Positions 54,776 to 57,206 of a DNA stretch of 64,000 bases are shown piece by piece; the first letter of the stretch is position 1; each line of letters begins with the position of its first letter. This DNA comes from Streptomyces sp. Je 1-332 (lineage in GTDB: Bacteria > Actinomycetota > Actinomycetes > Streptomycetales > Streptomycetaceae). The DNA is taken from NCBI RefSeq assembly GCF_040730185.1, contig NZ_CP160402.1:4216001-4280000 (forward strand). Direction: 5' to 3'. Below the pieces are notes generated by a model. That model did not search any database. It saw only the letters and a list, made by a program, of their open reading frames with translations, and was not told where the DNA came from. The translations under genes were made by a program, and so were the position numbers.

Positions 54776-55435
54776 TCAGTTGTCGGTGTCCAGTATTCCT
54801 GACTGCCCGATGAGATAACCGAGTTGCCCGCGGCTGTGGCTGCCGAGGGTGGAGGCGAGCTTGGCGATGTGGACGCGGGCGGTGCGGATGTTCATGCCCA
54901 GACGGGCGGCTATCTCGGAGTCGGTGTGGCCTTCGATCAGCAGGCCGGCCACGGCCCGCTGGCGGGTGGTGATGCCGTTGTCCGAGGGCTGTGGTGCGGC
55001 TCGGGGAAACATGGGTGTGGCCATGTGCCATTGGCGCTCGAAGGCTGTCACGAGGTAGCCGACCAGGGCGGGGTGGCGGACTTCGAGGGCCCGGGTGTTG
55101 CCTTGGTGTCCGGGGATGAACGCCACCGCGCGGTCCAGGATGACCAGGCGGTCGGTGATCTCGTCGAGGGTACGGACCTCGACGTCCCCGTCCAGTTGCT
55201 CGTAGTGCGCGAGGACGGGCAGCGAGTGCCGTGAGGTGTGCTGGTAGAGCGTACGCATCCGGCAGCCTCGCGAGAGCATGGCCTGCTCGCGAGGCAGGGC
55301 GGCGGCGAGGACCTCGGGCGGTCGGCTCCCGCCCGGTTGTACGGTCAGCAGTTCCTCCGTGGCCTCGGCCGCTGCGCGTGCGATGGCGTCGTTGATGCGG
55401 GGGAGGCCGTCGAGCGCGGTGATCGCAGGCGGCAT
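54776..55435 (-). CDS. LuxR-type HTH regulator, shortened paralogue
   Basis: A 219-aa regulator whose whole length aligns with residues ~115-327 of the next gene upstream (e.g. PRINDAIARAAAEATEELLT against KRINEAIGVATAECQTEILT). The C-terminal LuxR-type HTH lies at ~155-210 (GLLIEGHTDSEIAARLGMNI, RTARVHIAKLASTLGSHSRG). The first ~115 residues of the paralogue are missing. ATG at 55435 with AGGGAG 8 bp before it; 22 bp downstream of the paralogue's stop, so an operon. It has the central TrmB-like part and the HTH but not the paralogue's N-terminal part. Target unknown. Confidence 0.8.
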   Translation of the reverse strand: MPPAITALDGLPRINDAIARAAAEATEELLTVQPGGSRPPEVLAAALPREQAMLSRGCRMRTLYQHTSRHSLPVLAHYEQLDGDVEVRTLDEITDRLVILDRAVAFIPGHQGNTRALEVRHPALVGYLVTAFERQWHMATPMFPRAAPQPSDNGITTRQRAVAGLLIEGHTDSEIAARLGMNIRTARVHIAKLASTLGSHSRGQLGYLIGQSGILDTDN

Positions 55436-55457
55436 TCCGCTCACTCCCTGACCGATT

Positions 55458-56441
55458 TCAGTGATCTCTCTCGAGGATCCCGGACTGTGCGATCAGATAA
55501 CCGAGTTGCGCTCGGCTTCCACTGCCCAGGGCCGCGGCGATCTTTGCGATGTGGGAGCGGCAGGTGCGGACGTTCATGCCGAGGCGGCGGGCGATGGCCT
55601 CGTCCACGTGTCCCTCGATGAGGAGCCTGGCTATGGTGCGCTGGACGCCGGTGATGCCGTCGGTGGCGGGGGCGTAGGGGGTCTCTTCGAGGAGGGGAGC
55701 CGCGCGTTGCCAGAGTTGCTCGAAGACGTTCGCCAGGTACTCGACGAGCCCCGGGTGCCTGAGTTCCAGGGCTACTTGGCGATCGTCCCGCGCGGGTATG
55801 AAGGCAACGGTGCGGTCGAAGATCATCAGGCGTTCGATGAGTTCCTCCAGGGTCCGCACCTCCACCTTGCCTTGTTTCATGTACTCGGCATAGGCGATCG
55901 TGCCTTGGCTGTGCCGAGCGGTGTGCTGGTAGAGGGTCCGCATGGTGATGCCGCGCTCGATGATGCCCTGGCTTCGCTCCACGGCCTCGGTGAGGATGGC
56001 CTCGCTCCGCCCGCCGCCGGGTTGCACCGTGAGGATCTCGGTCTGGCACTCGGCGGTGGCGACTCCTATGGCCTCGTTGATCCGCTTGACGCCCTCCAGA
56101 ACCGTTATCGCATGGACCGGCGTCCTGTCCTGAGCGGTGATGGCCATGAATGGCTCGAAGGTTTCGGTCAGTTCGACTGCGCGGGACCTGCGTTCCTGGA
56201 TCTCACGCTCAAGAGGCCGCAGGCGCTGAGCGAGTACGGCCGTCGGCGGAAGAGGGCGGAGCCAGCCGGCGTCATCGGGATCAGGGTGCAGGAGGGCGAA
56301 TTCCACCAGGCAAGGAGCCAGTGCGACTTCAGTGCGCGCTATGCGCCCCGAGCGCAGAGCGCTGGCGTAGAGCCTCTTTCCCTCGTCGCACAGGTCAGCC
56401 ATGGAATGAGGATGTGCCCGAATTGGGCTGCTTGTTGTCAT
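55458..56441 (-). CDS. TrmB-like/LuxR-type HTH transcriptional regulator
   Basis: A 327-aa regulator. N-terminal part (~15-115) is helical (LCDEGKRLYASALRSGRIAR, PLEREIQERRSRAVELTETF), the middle (~115-250) resembles the phospholipase-D-like or TrmB C-terminal sensor domains, and the LuxR-type HTH is at ~265-320 (IARLLIEGHVDEAIARRLGM, RTCRSHIAKIAAALG). It is divergent from the small membrane peptide gene at 56549 (107-bp gap), so it probably controls that unit. Confidence 0.85.
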   Translation of the reverse strand: MTTSSPIRAHPHSMADLCDEGKRLYASALRSGRIARTEVALAPCLVEFALLHPDPDDAGWLRPLPPTAVLAQRLRPLEREIQERRSRAVELTETFEPFMAITAQDRTPVHAITVLEGVKRINEAIGVATAECQTEILTVQPGGGRSEAILTEAVERSQGIIERGITMRTLYQHTARHSQGTIAYAEYMKQGKVEVRTLEELIERLMIFDRTVAFIPARDDRQVALELRHPGLVEYLANVFEQLWQRAAPLLEETPYAPATDGITGVQRTIARLLIEGHVDEAIARRLGMNVRTCRSHIAKIAAALGSGSRAQLGYLIAQSGILERDH

Positions 56442-56548
56442 ATCTCCATCCCCCAGGGTCCTGAACGTGCAGGAACATGATGCATCGCTCCTGTGGTGTT
56501 CGCATGGCTGAATGAGCCATCGTCTTGGAAGGCCGGGGGAGAGTCGCT

Positions 56549-56755
56549 ATGGAAGTGAGGACGAAGCGCGCTATGTGCAAGGGAATGCTTCGCTCGGTAC
56601 TTGTCGGTGCCTTCTCCATTGGGTTGGCCATCAGTGCGTGGAGTGCTCTCGACACGCTGGGGAGTTCCGAGCCCGCGGCCACTCATATCTCGGTGCCCAA
56701 TGCGGCGCCCCCGGACATCATTTGGAACACCGCCCCGGCGGGAGCAAGAGCATGA
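56549..56755 (+). CDS. Small membrane or secreted peptide (68 aa)
   Basis: A 68-aa peptide: positive N-region MEVRTKRAMCKGMLRS, hydrophobic helix VLVGAFSIGLAISAWSAL (residues ~17-34), then a short Pro/Ala-rich outside tail (SSEPAATHISVPNAAPPDII). The ATG follows GGGGGAGAG. TGA overlaps the ATG of the Rieske-like gene (ATGA), so the two are coupled. It may be a signal peptide plus ~30-residue exported peptide, or a single-span membrane peptide. I recognise no family. It lies opposite the LuxR gene. Confidence 0.65.
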   Translation: MEVRTKRAMCKGMLRSVLVGAFSIGLAISAWSALDTLGSSEPAATHISVPNAAPPDIIWNTAPAGARA

Positions 56756-57123
56756 GTACTCCCCCCGACGACCGCACCTTCCGCCGGGAAATGGCCACCG
56801 CCTACCGCTCCGGTTGGCACTTCATCGATCTCGCCACCGCGATACCCCACGCCGGCGACTCGTTGATGGTCACGCTCCTCGGTGAGCCAGTAGTCGTCAC
56901 CCGTGACGACGAGGAGGAGATCCGGGCCTACCGGTGCCTCCGCAAGCCGCGCGGCGCCCCCCAGCCCGTGCGGTGTGCCATTCGGTACGGGATGGTCTTC
57001 GTCAATCTCGACCGGCGTGATCACCAGCTGGTCGGTGAGCCGGGGCAGCCGGGCGGCCGGCAGCAGGACCAGCAGAGTTCCACCACTACAAGAGCCATCA
57101 CAGCCACCCCCCGCAGCGCCTGA
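56752..57123 (+). CDS. Rieske-like protein lacking cluster-binding histidines
   Basis: A 123-aa protein whose residues ~20-90 look like the N-terminal Rieske part of ring-hydroxylating oxygenases: GWHFIDLATAIPHAGDSLMV, TLLGEPVVVTRDDEEEIRAY, then RCLRKPRGAPQPVRCAIRYG and MVFVNLD. In an active Rieske centre the ligands are C-x-H and C-x2-H; here both Cys are kept (C62, C75) but the His positions are Arg (R64, R78). The catalytic iron domain is absent. It is therefore probably a protein-binding or regulatory relative, not an oxygenase. The C-terminal 30 residues are low complexity. Translationally coupled to the peptide gene. Confidence 0.6.
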   Translation: MSTPPDDRTFRREMATAYRSGWHFIDLATAIPHAGDSLMVTLLGEPVVVTRDDEEEIRAYRCLRKPRGAPQPVRCAIRYGMVFVNLDRRDHQLVGEPGQPGGRQQDQQSSTTTRAITATPRSA

Positions 57124-57166: not shown

Positions 57167-57206
57167 CAGCGGCGCCACCGTGGACCTGAACACGGTGGCG
57201 CCGCTG
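57167..57206. terminator. Hairpin between Rieske-like and PPOX genes
   Basis: Perfect 16-bp stem CAGCGGCGCCACCGTG (57167-57182) / CACGGTGGCGCCGCTG (57191-57206), 8-nt loop. It serves the two convergent genes. Confidence 0.8.

Follow-up and report, generated by a model that had tools for sequence, protein, structure and literature searches.

What do two tandem LuxR-type regulator genes, a 68-residue peptide gene and a short Rieske-like gene do together between heat-shock loci? The question is raised by positions 54,776–57,123 of a stretch of Streptomyces sp. Je 1-332 DNA (hereafter the window: 64,000 nucleotides, positions 4,216,001–4,280,000 of contig NZ_CP160402.1), a 64-kb part of an 8.27-Mb genome on one contig. 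The initial annotation had taken the four genes for a self-contained signalling or peptide system that it did not recognize as described. The analysis supports this, as the peptide gene is a conserved coding sequence, the genes occur together in other genomes, and the divergent regulator (here luxA) co-varies with the peptide residue by residue; a search of the open-licence literature, judged mostly by title and abstract, likewise gave no matching description. To judge from these sequence patterns, the locus most likely encodes a peptide pheromone together with its receptor, luxA likely being that receptor. The anatomy of the precursor, the selection for one word per genome, a code that connects this word with luxA and the prediction of that code on unseen genomes are all observed. 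The features on which the argument depends are as follows, where x2 and x3 are the two middle residues of D-x-x-W.

luxA, 55458–56441, minus strand: 327 residues, proposed receptor, with a TrmB/phospholipase D (PLD)-like sensor at about residues 106–255 and a C-terminal LuxR helix-turn-helix (HTH) at about 263–320
luxA codon 136 (Ile in the window), 56034–56036, minus strand: Met if and only if x2 is Ser in Streptomyces luxA
luxA codon 157 (Ser in the window), 55971–55973, minus strand: Asp if and only if x2 is Ser or Thr in Streptomyces luxA
Propeptide gene, 56549–56755, plus strand: 68 residues, with a basic N-terminus, a hydrophobic stretch and a tail with a single D-x-x-W word
Signal word D-I-I-W, then N, 56714–56725, plus strand: the only copy in the precursor of the window

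The product of the small gene looks like a propeptide in which a signal-like N-terminus is followed by copies of the word. Each of the 131 distinct Streptomyces precursors in the first set has at least one [DN]xxW, and 370 of their 375 Trp residues stand in this frame (365 with Asp, 5 with Asn; the count takes in Trp only after residue 28, and motifs from position 25 onward). The number of copies ranges from 1 to 18 and is at least two in 103 of the 131 precursors, 90 of which carry the same middle in every copy (2000 shuffles: mean 6.6, maximum 15). Pairs of copies within precursors agree at both middle residues in 641 of 657 cases, agreement between precursors is 5%, and 29 distinct middles are found between genomes; the residue after the Trp is less constant, with 397 of the 657 pairs agreeing. 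The codons of the copies differ by 194 synonymous and 1 non-synonymous changes at x2 and by 292 and 16 at x3 (total 486 versus 17). As the copies differ synonymously, selection maintains the identity of the word, and recent duplication alone does not account for it. The same synonymous excess answers the question of purifying selection in favour of a coding sequence and, with the identity of the word copies, leads us to reject a chance or non-coding peptide. The initial annotation was right about the gene and its exported-looking product, and had not noticed the key D-x-x-W word (DIIW).

The pattern recurs in a held-out set (described below), in which copies are identical in 95 of 97 multi-copy precursors. 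The precursor ends exactly one residue past the last Trp in 77 of 248 distinct precursors. Over codons 2–24, the ratio of non-synonymous to synonymous single-base differences is 1.35, where mutation alone would give 2.79 (188 distinct sequences), which suggests modest constraint on the N-terminus. Four loci that have diverged strongly retain the gene order and, despite an unrelated N-terminus, have tails ending in DPAWD or DPTWG. Precursor open reading frames (ORFs) were chosen by a score on an RTKP pattern, an LRSVL-like pattern and, at lower weight, the number of D-x-x-W words. Nine of the 174 loci of the first set, L165 among them, were excluded for a Rieske match below 60 bits, and 7 of the remaining 165 gave no precursor (L034, L135, L164, L166–L169); L034 does show one, L164–L167 were read by hand, L168 and L169 are full-size oxygenases, and L081 and L162 were dropped as misframed. 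Two loci, L137 (DSTW) and L293 (DTGW), hold 18 copies each. In some precursors Glu replaces the Asp (EISW, EPTW; L246, L315, L252, L275, L276), alike within each precursor.

The middle of the word is matched by residues of the LuxA sensor. In the training set (127 of the 131 luxA sequences after a length filter), Met136 is present in 56/56 pairs with Ser at x2 and in 0/71 others, and Asp157 in 86/86 pairs with Ser or Thr at x2 and in 0/41 others. Both residue rules were fixed in writing before 140 further regions were obtained. Precursors were extracted from 131 of these; 123 pairs were distinct from the training set, 121 of them with [DN]xxW and the other two with EISW, and the nine regions without an extracted precursor comprise four with DxxW, three with EPTW and two misframed. 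Among the 121, Met136 accompanies Ser in 59/59 and any other residue in 0/62, and Asp157 accompanies Ser or Thr in 95/95 and others in 0/26, so that both pre-stated rules hold in 121/121 distinct held-out pairs; Val136 accompanies Thr in 35/36. Peptide and luxA thus co-vary residue by residue, and receptor specificity is predictable from the code (Ser with Met136, Thr with Val136, an acid at 157 for Ser/Thr). The columns most strongly tied to x3 are 153 (z 6.5), 145, 129 and 143.

When shared ancestry is considered, the signal concentrates in the sensor. On a combined tree of luxA, Rieske, ClpB and PPOX (127 taxa), the columns co-changing with the two middle residues at z > 2.5 number 13/96 in the sensor, 1/67 in the N-terminal part and 0/21 in the HTH, and the control columns give 0/35 for Rieske, 0/57 for ClpB and 0/79 for PPOX. 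On a tree of luxA alone, column 136 stays at z 8.5 for x2. Over the pooled 248 pairs, residue 136 is concordant with x2 in 248/248, and by parsimony the Ser/Met state switches 26 times when the luxA tree is built with columns 136 and 157 left out, and 30 times when the sensor is left out. As both characters agree at every tip, their changes fall on the same branches by construction; this placement being forced, what carries information is how many switches there are, a number that errors in the tree can inflate. Among close luxA pairs that differ by Ser/Thr at x2, residue 136 switches between Met and Val in 49/49, and among pairs with the same x2 it differs in 0/77; the 49 pairs are disjoint, not fully independent.

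Neighbouring regulators of the same kind do not follow these rules. A luxA paralogue on the opposite strand, which accompanies many cassettes (L083–L162, upstream of luxA), has Val136 and Ala157 in 62/62, whatever the word. The 85 same-strand paralogue ORFs show no rule (Met in 2/39 with Ser at x2); position and score defined this group, in which at least one row scores highly as luxA-like (up to 611 bits). In the same named loci luxA follows the code 75/75, most of these also being training data. The proposal that both LuxR genes are receptors is therefore rejected for the paralogues, as they ignore the code, and of the regulator pair initially annotated, the divergent luxA stands as the gene that tracks the peptide, and the second LuxR gene does not, paralogues in its place lying outside the code.

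Regulators resembling luxA also lie near D-x-x-W propeptides elsewhere. In another actinomycete family (f26), 74 of 149 genomes hold a homologue, and 29 of 31 distinct loci encode a Sec-type prepeptide in which D-x-x-W mostly follows an AxA site directly, none being found in the other 2. A strict detector of AxA plus DxxW finds 27 of the 31 loci and gives 0 matches in 106 kb of control DNA (the 64-kb window and 42 kb of other loci). Here too the rules were fixed beforehand, six of the loci having already been seen. In the 29 pairs, all 7 occurrences of Met136 go with Ser and 0/19 Thr pairs have Met; Asp157 is present in 9/9 Ser and 13/19 Thr pairs, and the sole Phe has Ala. The strict rules hold in 27/29 (position 136) and 23/29 (position 157), or 21 and 17 of the 23 new loci, and an acid at 157 for Ser/Thr holds in 29/29. 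The six Glu157 receptors all pair with DTTW (L397, L408, L411–L414), and DTSW and DTGW go with Asp157. Within the genus, 31 loci of luxA paralogues (L341, L348–L377) yield a candidate peptide in six (L341, L348, L350, L354, L356, L368), and both rules hold in those six, three of the peptides being eye-picked. Over all these loci, inspection of six-frame translations supplied the peptides of L346, L348, L354 and L368. The strict detector finds none among relatives in family f19 (L420–L436), and no convincing D-x-x-W gene adjoins L177 or L178, the two weak paralogues of luxA in the genome of the window.

The predicted structure of LuxA is consistent with a sensor joined to a DNA-binding domain. 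Profile searches match TrmBL2 at E 0.006 and LuxR-type HTH structures at E 0.002 and weaker; the GerE family (PF00196) scores 18.5 bits for luxA, below the 23.5 cut-off, and 27.6 bits for luxB, above it. The TrmB family is not listed among the Pfam matches of luxA, TbsP_N and DUF7436 fall below cut-off, and at up to E 1 the matches include no tetratricopeptide repeat (TPR) family for luxA and no autoinducer-binding domain for luxA or luxB. An AlphaFold2 (AF2) model of luxA (mean predicted local distance difference test score, pLDDT, 78; predicted template modelling score, pTM, 0.48) matches TrmBL2 (3e-14), the sugar-binding domain of TrmB (2f5t, root-mean-square deviation 3.2) and the PLD-family nuclease Nuc in Foldseek. 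In the model, residue 136 lies in strand 135–140, residue 157 in helix 147–162, and residues 143 and 145 in the turn between them.

A mechanism of the following kind would account for these patterns. The small gene would give an exported propeptide, cleaved to a short D-x-x-W(x) peptide that would be taken up again and bound by the TrmB/PLD-like sensor of cytoplasmic LuxA. Asp157 may bond the hydroxyl of Ser or Thr at x2, with residue 136 filling the adjoining space (Met with Ser, Val with almost every Thr), and positions 153, 143, 145 and 129 may read x3. Binding would alter the action of the LuxR HTH at an operator shared in the intergenic region, giving autoregulation and perhaps reaching further targets, maybe antibiotic genes. 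By carrying many copies, a precursor would raise the output of a single uniform signal, much as the yeast alpha-factor precursor does. The Rieske-like product would be accessory and not set specificity; it may, for example, modulate LuxA. Two intergenic features are candidates for the DNA target.

Candidate operator, inverted repeat TCCTG-6 nt-CAGGA, 56459–56474, luxA/peptide intergenic: region conserved in 279 sequences, duplicates included
15-base element CAGGAACATGATGCA with core AACATGATGC, 56470–56484, plus strand: core in 276 of the 279 intergenic regions

The gap between luxA and the peptide gene measures 110–116 nucleotides in 265 of the 279 sequences, and AACATGATGC lies inside a conserved stretch that in many also holds the inverted repeat. 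The exact 15-base element occurs once in the own genome.

Several results speak against a pheromone and receptor. With up to 2 mismatches the element has 22 matches in the own genome versus 24 for a reversed control, so no regulon is visible. No importer is recognized beside the locus, in scans that recognized only window-like genes. The pTM of the luxA model is low, at only 0.48. One held-out Thr pair has Leu136 in place of Val; in family f26, 2/9 Ser pairs lack Met136, and 6/19 Thr pairs have Glu157, not Asp. The state at 157 changes only 3 or 5 times on the trees. The luxA-only tree leaves just 2/96 sensor columns at z > 2.5 for the two middle residues together and 6/96 for x2, and single control columns reach z 2.5–2.8 on it. 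On the control-gene tree, luxA co-varies throughout at z > 2.5 (N-terminal 11/67, sensor 19/98, HTH 3/22), and one ClpB column reaches z 3.7 for x2. We take the co-variation on that tree to mean that luxA and peptide are exchanged together, but it weakens any argument drawn from that tree alone.

Such exchange invites the explanation that luxA and its neighbour merely recombine together and so look co-adapted without interacting. The window itself fits: its nearest luxA (88%) has the same II word, and the nearest Rieske, ClpB and PPOX genes come from strains with other words, so that signal and receptor were apparently exchanged together as one cassette; the spread of co-variation over all three parts of luxA on the control-gene tree points the same way. 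Linkage alone, however, would favour the N-terminal part of luxA, which lies nearer the peptide gene and yet carries less signal than the sensor. Nor would it be expected to hold one column concordant in 248/248 over some 26 switches, to separate close pairs as sharply as 49/49 versus 0/77, or to spare adjacent paralogues, which ignore the code. We regard a linkage artefact as largely refuted, and the chance that it explains the locus as very small.

Two further explanations accept that LuxA recognizes the word. LuxA might bind the D-x-x-W tail of precursor that has not been exported and so report export capacity, as an intracellular, secretion-monitoring circuit. The code indicates recognition and not its place, and the failure of the scans for window-like genes to recognize an importer suits such a circuit; signals in many copies that differ between genomes better fit specificity between cells, though, and in f26 the word mostly follows right after AxA sites, as if released outside. 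On balance we find this circuit unlikely. Alternatively, the copies could be the cores of a ribosomally synthesized and post-translationally modified peptide (RiPP) or bacteriocin, LuxA being only a pathway regulator or immunity sensor. Multi-core precursors do occur among RiPPs, and the small partner gene could encode a modifying or carrier protein. That partner, however, lacks cluster ligands and is not found in the f26 loci (enzymes unlike the window proteins were not searched for), and the core varies in lock-step with a sensor domain, which together make a RiPP distinctly improbable. A pheromone read by LuxA accommodates the copies, their variation between genomes and the code, and is the explanation that we prefer.

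The remaining features of the locus are as follows.

luxB, 54776–55444, minus strand: 222 residues, a luxA paralogue shortened to sensor and HTH, outside the peptide code
Rieske-like partner, 56752–57123, plus strand: 123 residues, an N-terminal oxygenase alpha fragment without cluster ligands, C-terminus ATPRSA
Hairpin 3′ of the Rieske gene, 57167–57206: perfect 16-bp stem, 8-nt loop, a possible terminator without a T-run

The Rieske-like partner aligns with oxygenase alpha subunits before their second ligand motif, one alignment also including the GMIFIN strand after it. It shares sequence and fold with ring-hydroxylating oxygenase alpha subunits over its residues ~5–90, and differs from them in having no cluster ligands, no second ligand region and no catalytic domain. 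The alignments show no intact CxH, and nothing in the partner corresponds to the second ligand region; one of them places Cys62, a residue that is conserved with few exceptions, on the ligand Cys and has Arg for the His, and another alignment replaces both. A working Rieske protein is therefore rejected, the CxH and CxxH ligands of a [2Fe-2S] cluster not being kept, which bears out the cluster-less protein first annotated. An AF2 model (mean pLDDT 68.5) has a disordered tail and weak oxygenase matches, the best at 7.6e-4. The C-terminus, ATPRSA after a variable linker (57100–57123 in the window), is kept in 115 of 119 distinct sequences, as if it were a binding or degradation signal. We also reject the partner as a specificity factor, 0/35 of its columns co-varying on the combined tree; on the luxA-only tree two columns exceed z 2.5 for x2 (maximum 2.78). 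No Rieske match is found in 36 f26 loci (duplicates included) or in the 31 same-genus paralogue loci. Given the lack of co-variation on the combined tree and of a match in the f26 loci, we take the partner to be accessory.

The cassette is widespread within the genus. The 80 named relatives are Streptomyces, with one exception recorded as "Actinobacteria bacterium". Of 392 same-genus genomes, 330 have a Rieske-like match; five of the weak ones (G048, G337, G086, G263, G298) have only full-size oxygenases, leaving ~325, and ~83% of the sampled genomes of the genus have the signal–receptor pair. Across 394 genomes sampled from the whole class, the short Rieske form is limited to this genus, the Rieske matches listed for other genera being frames of at least 365 residues, and the plasmids searched for Rieske give 0 matches. 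Among 28 same-genus genomes with a luxA-profile match, 23 have both luxA (>500 bits) and the short Rieske gene and 5 have neither; in 21 genomes selected for lacking the short Rieske gene, the luxA match never exceeds 267 bits. luxA lies upstream on the opposite strand for 131/131 distinct precursors, and a luxA match is present in 140/140 regions of the later set. Given these figures and the Rieske-like matches in ~325 of 392 genomes, the locus is not a chance arrangement; the genes do occur together, with luxA divergent in nearly all loci, as the initial annotation had asked.

Gene order in Streptomyces coelicolor would connect the locus with antibiotic production. There clpB is given as SCO3661 (PMC2687793), and SCO3665 and SCO3666 are listed as LuxR-type (PMC3282765). 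SCO3664, described as a regulator, is among the insertions reported to raise actinorhodin more than 50-fold, and a complementation plasmid for it is listed (PMC6585502). From gene order, SCO3664 is probably luxA.

Peptide quorum sensing of a comparable design is known in Bacillota as the RRNPPA family, whose members include Rap-Phr, PlcR-PapR, NprR-NprX, Rgg-SHP and AimR-AimP. Both have neighbouring genes for a cytoplasmic receptor and a small propeptide that is exported, here by prediction, as well as a short mature peptide (likewise predicted here), duplicated copies in some propeptides and receptor–ligand specificity pairs. Of the RRNPPA route of secretion, proteolytic maturation and re-import by an oligopeptide permease, the present loci show the signal-like N-termini. 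An account of RRNPPA systems includes propeptides with duplicated pheromones (PMC11343458). The receptor described here has a TrmB/PLD-like sensor and LuxR HTH, not TPR, and the D-x-x-W word, the actinomycete hosts, the many copies kept identical and the Rieske-like partner in Streptomyces are further differences; as the receptor fold differs, the system is not an RRNPPA member, though it would work alike. Yeast alpha-factor-type precursors are secreted with several near-identical copies that vary between species, as here, whereas the present word is bacterial, ~4–5 residues long and matched to a soluble regulator, not a G-protein-coupled receptor. The archaeal TrmB/TrmBL regulators (5bpd, 3qph, 2f5t), with their PLD-like effector domain, are the best structural matches of LuxA; by entry titles they bind sugar or act as chromatin protein, whereas LuxA carries an additional C-terminal LuxR HTH and has a sensor that follows a peptide. 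LuxI/LuxR acyl-homoserine lactone systems share the GerE/LuxR-type HTH, but LuxA has no autoinducer-binding domain among its Pfam matches and the signal tracked is a peptide. According to work attributed to Willey (1993) and Nodwell (1996–1999), Streptomyces reportedly has an extracellular peptide signal that is imported by BldK. A D-x-x-W peptide, by analogy, would fit such an exported peptide acting on differentiation. A BldK-imported Streptomyces peptide signal is also named in a passage of PMC11303876.

Taken further, the D-x-x-W propeptides and TrmB/PLD-fold LuxR receptors that read their middle letters by a code could form an undescribed chemical language of several actinomycete groups, with, in Streptomyces, a fixed chromosomal place, many pherotypes arising by co-switching and luxA–peptide cassette exchange, and control of antibiotics; for this joint reading we see the case as evenly balanced. 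If true, it could include an extracellular peptide signal for differentiation in Streptomyces to which no gene is yet assigned. Streptomyces are the main producers of antibiotics, and a pair present in ~83% of genomes would give a direct handle on silent antibiotic pathways (compare SCO3664 and actinorhodin). With the code, receptor specificity can be predicted and at once put to the test with synthetic peptides, and a PLD/TrmB fold seems to have been adapted to reading peptides. Passages of quorum-sensing reviews name gamma-butyrolactones as Streptomyces signals, and in those passages no receptor-paired linear peptide pheromone is named for the genus.

The layout of the locus agrees with the initial annotation in the coordinates and strands of all four ORFs, in the 4-base ATGA overlap of peptide stop and Rieske start (also present in 88 of 156 loci counted, duplicates included) and in the strong hairpin with its perfect stem. 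Across loci the Rieske-like gene either overlaps the peptide gene or lies shortly behind it. Between the hspR/dnaJ side and clpB the order is luxB (−), luxA (−), peptide (+), Rieske-like (+) and PPOX (−). The PPOX gene and clpB adjoin the loci of most relatives too, as does hspR where the locus extends far enough, and an island foreign to its place is rejected on these grounds. PPOX, not found between Rieske and clpB in L020, L031, L033 and L099, is for that reason probably outside the system. The peptide of relatives usually begins at a GTG that corresponds to codon 3 in the window (56555). luxB starts 13 bases past the luxA stop and is without the first ~105 residues of its relatives; in G638, a similarly short match adjoins luxA.

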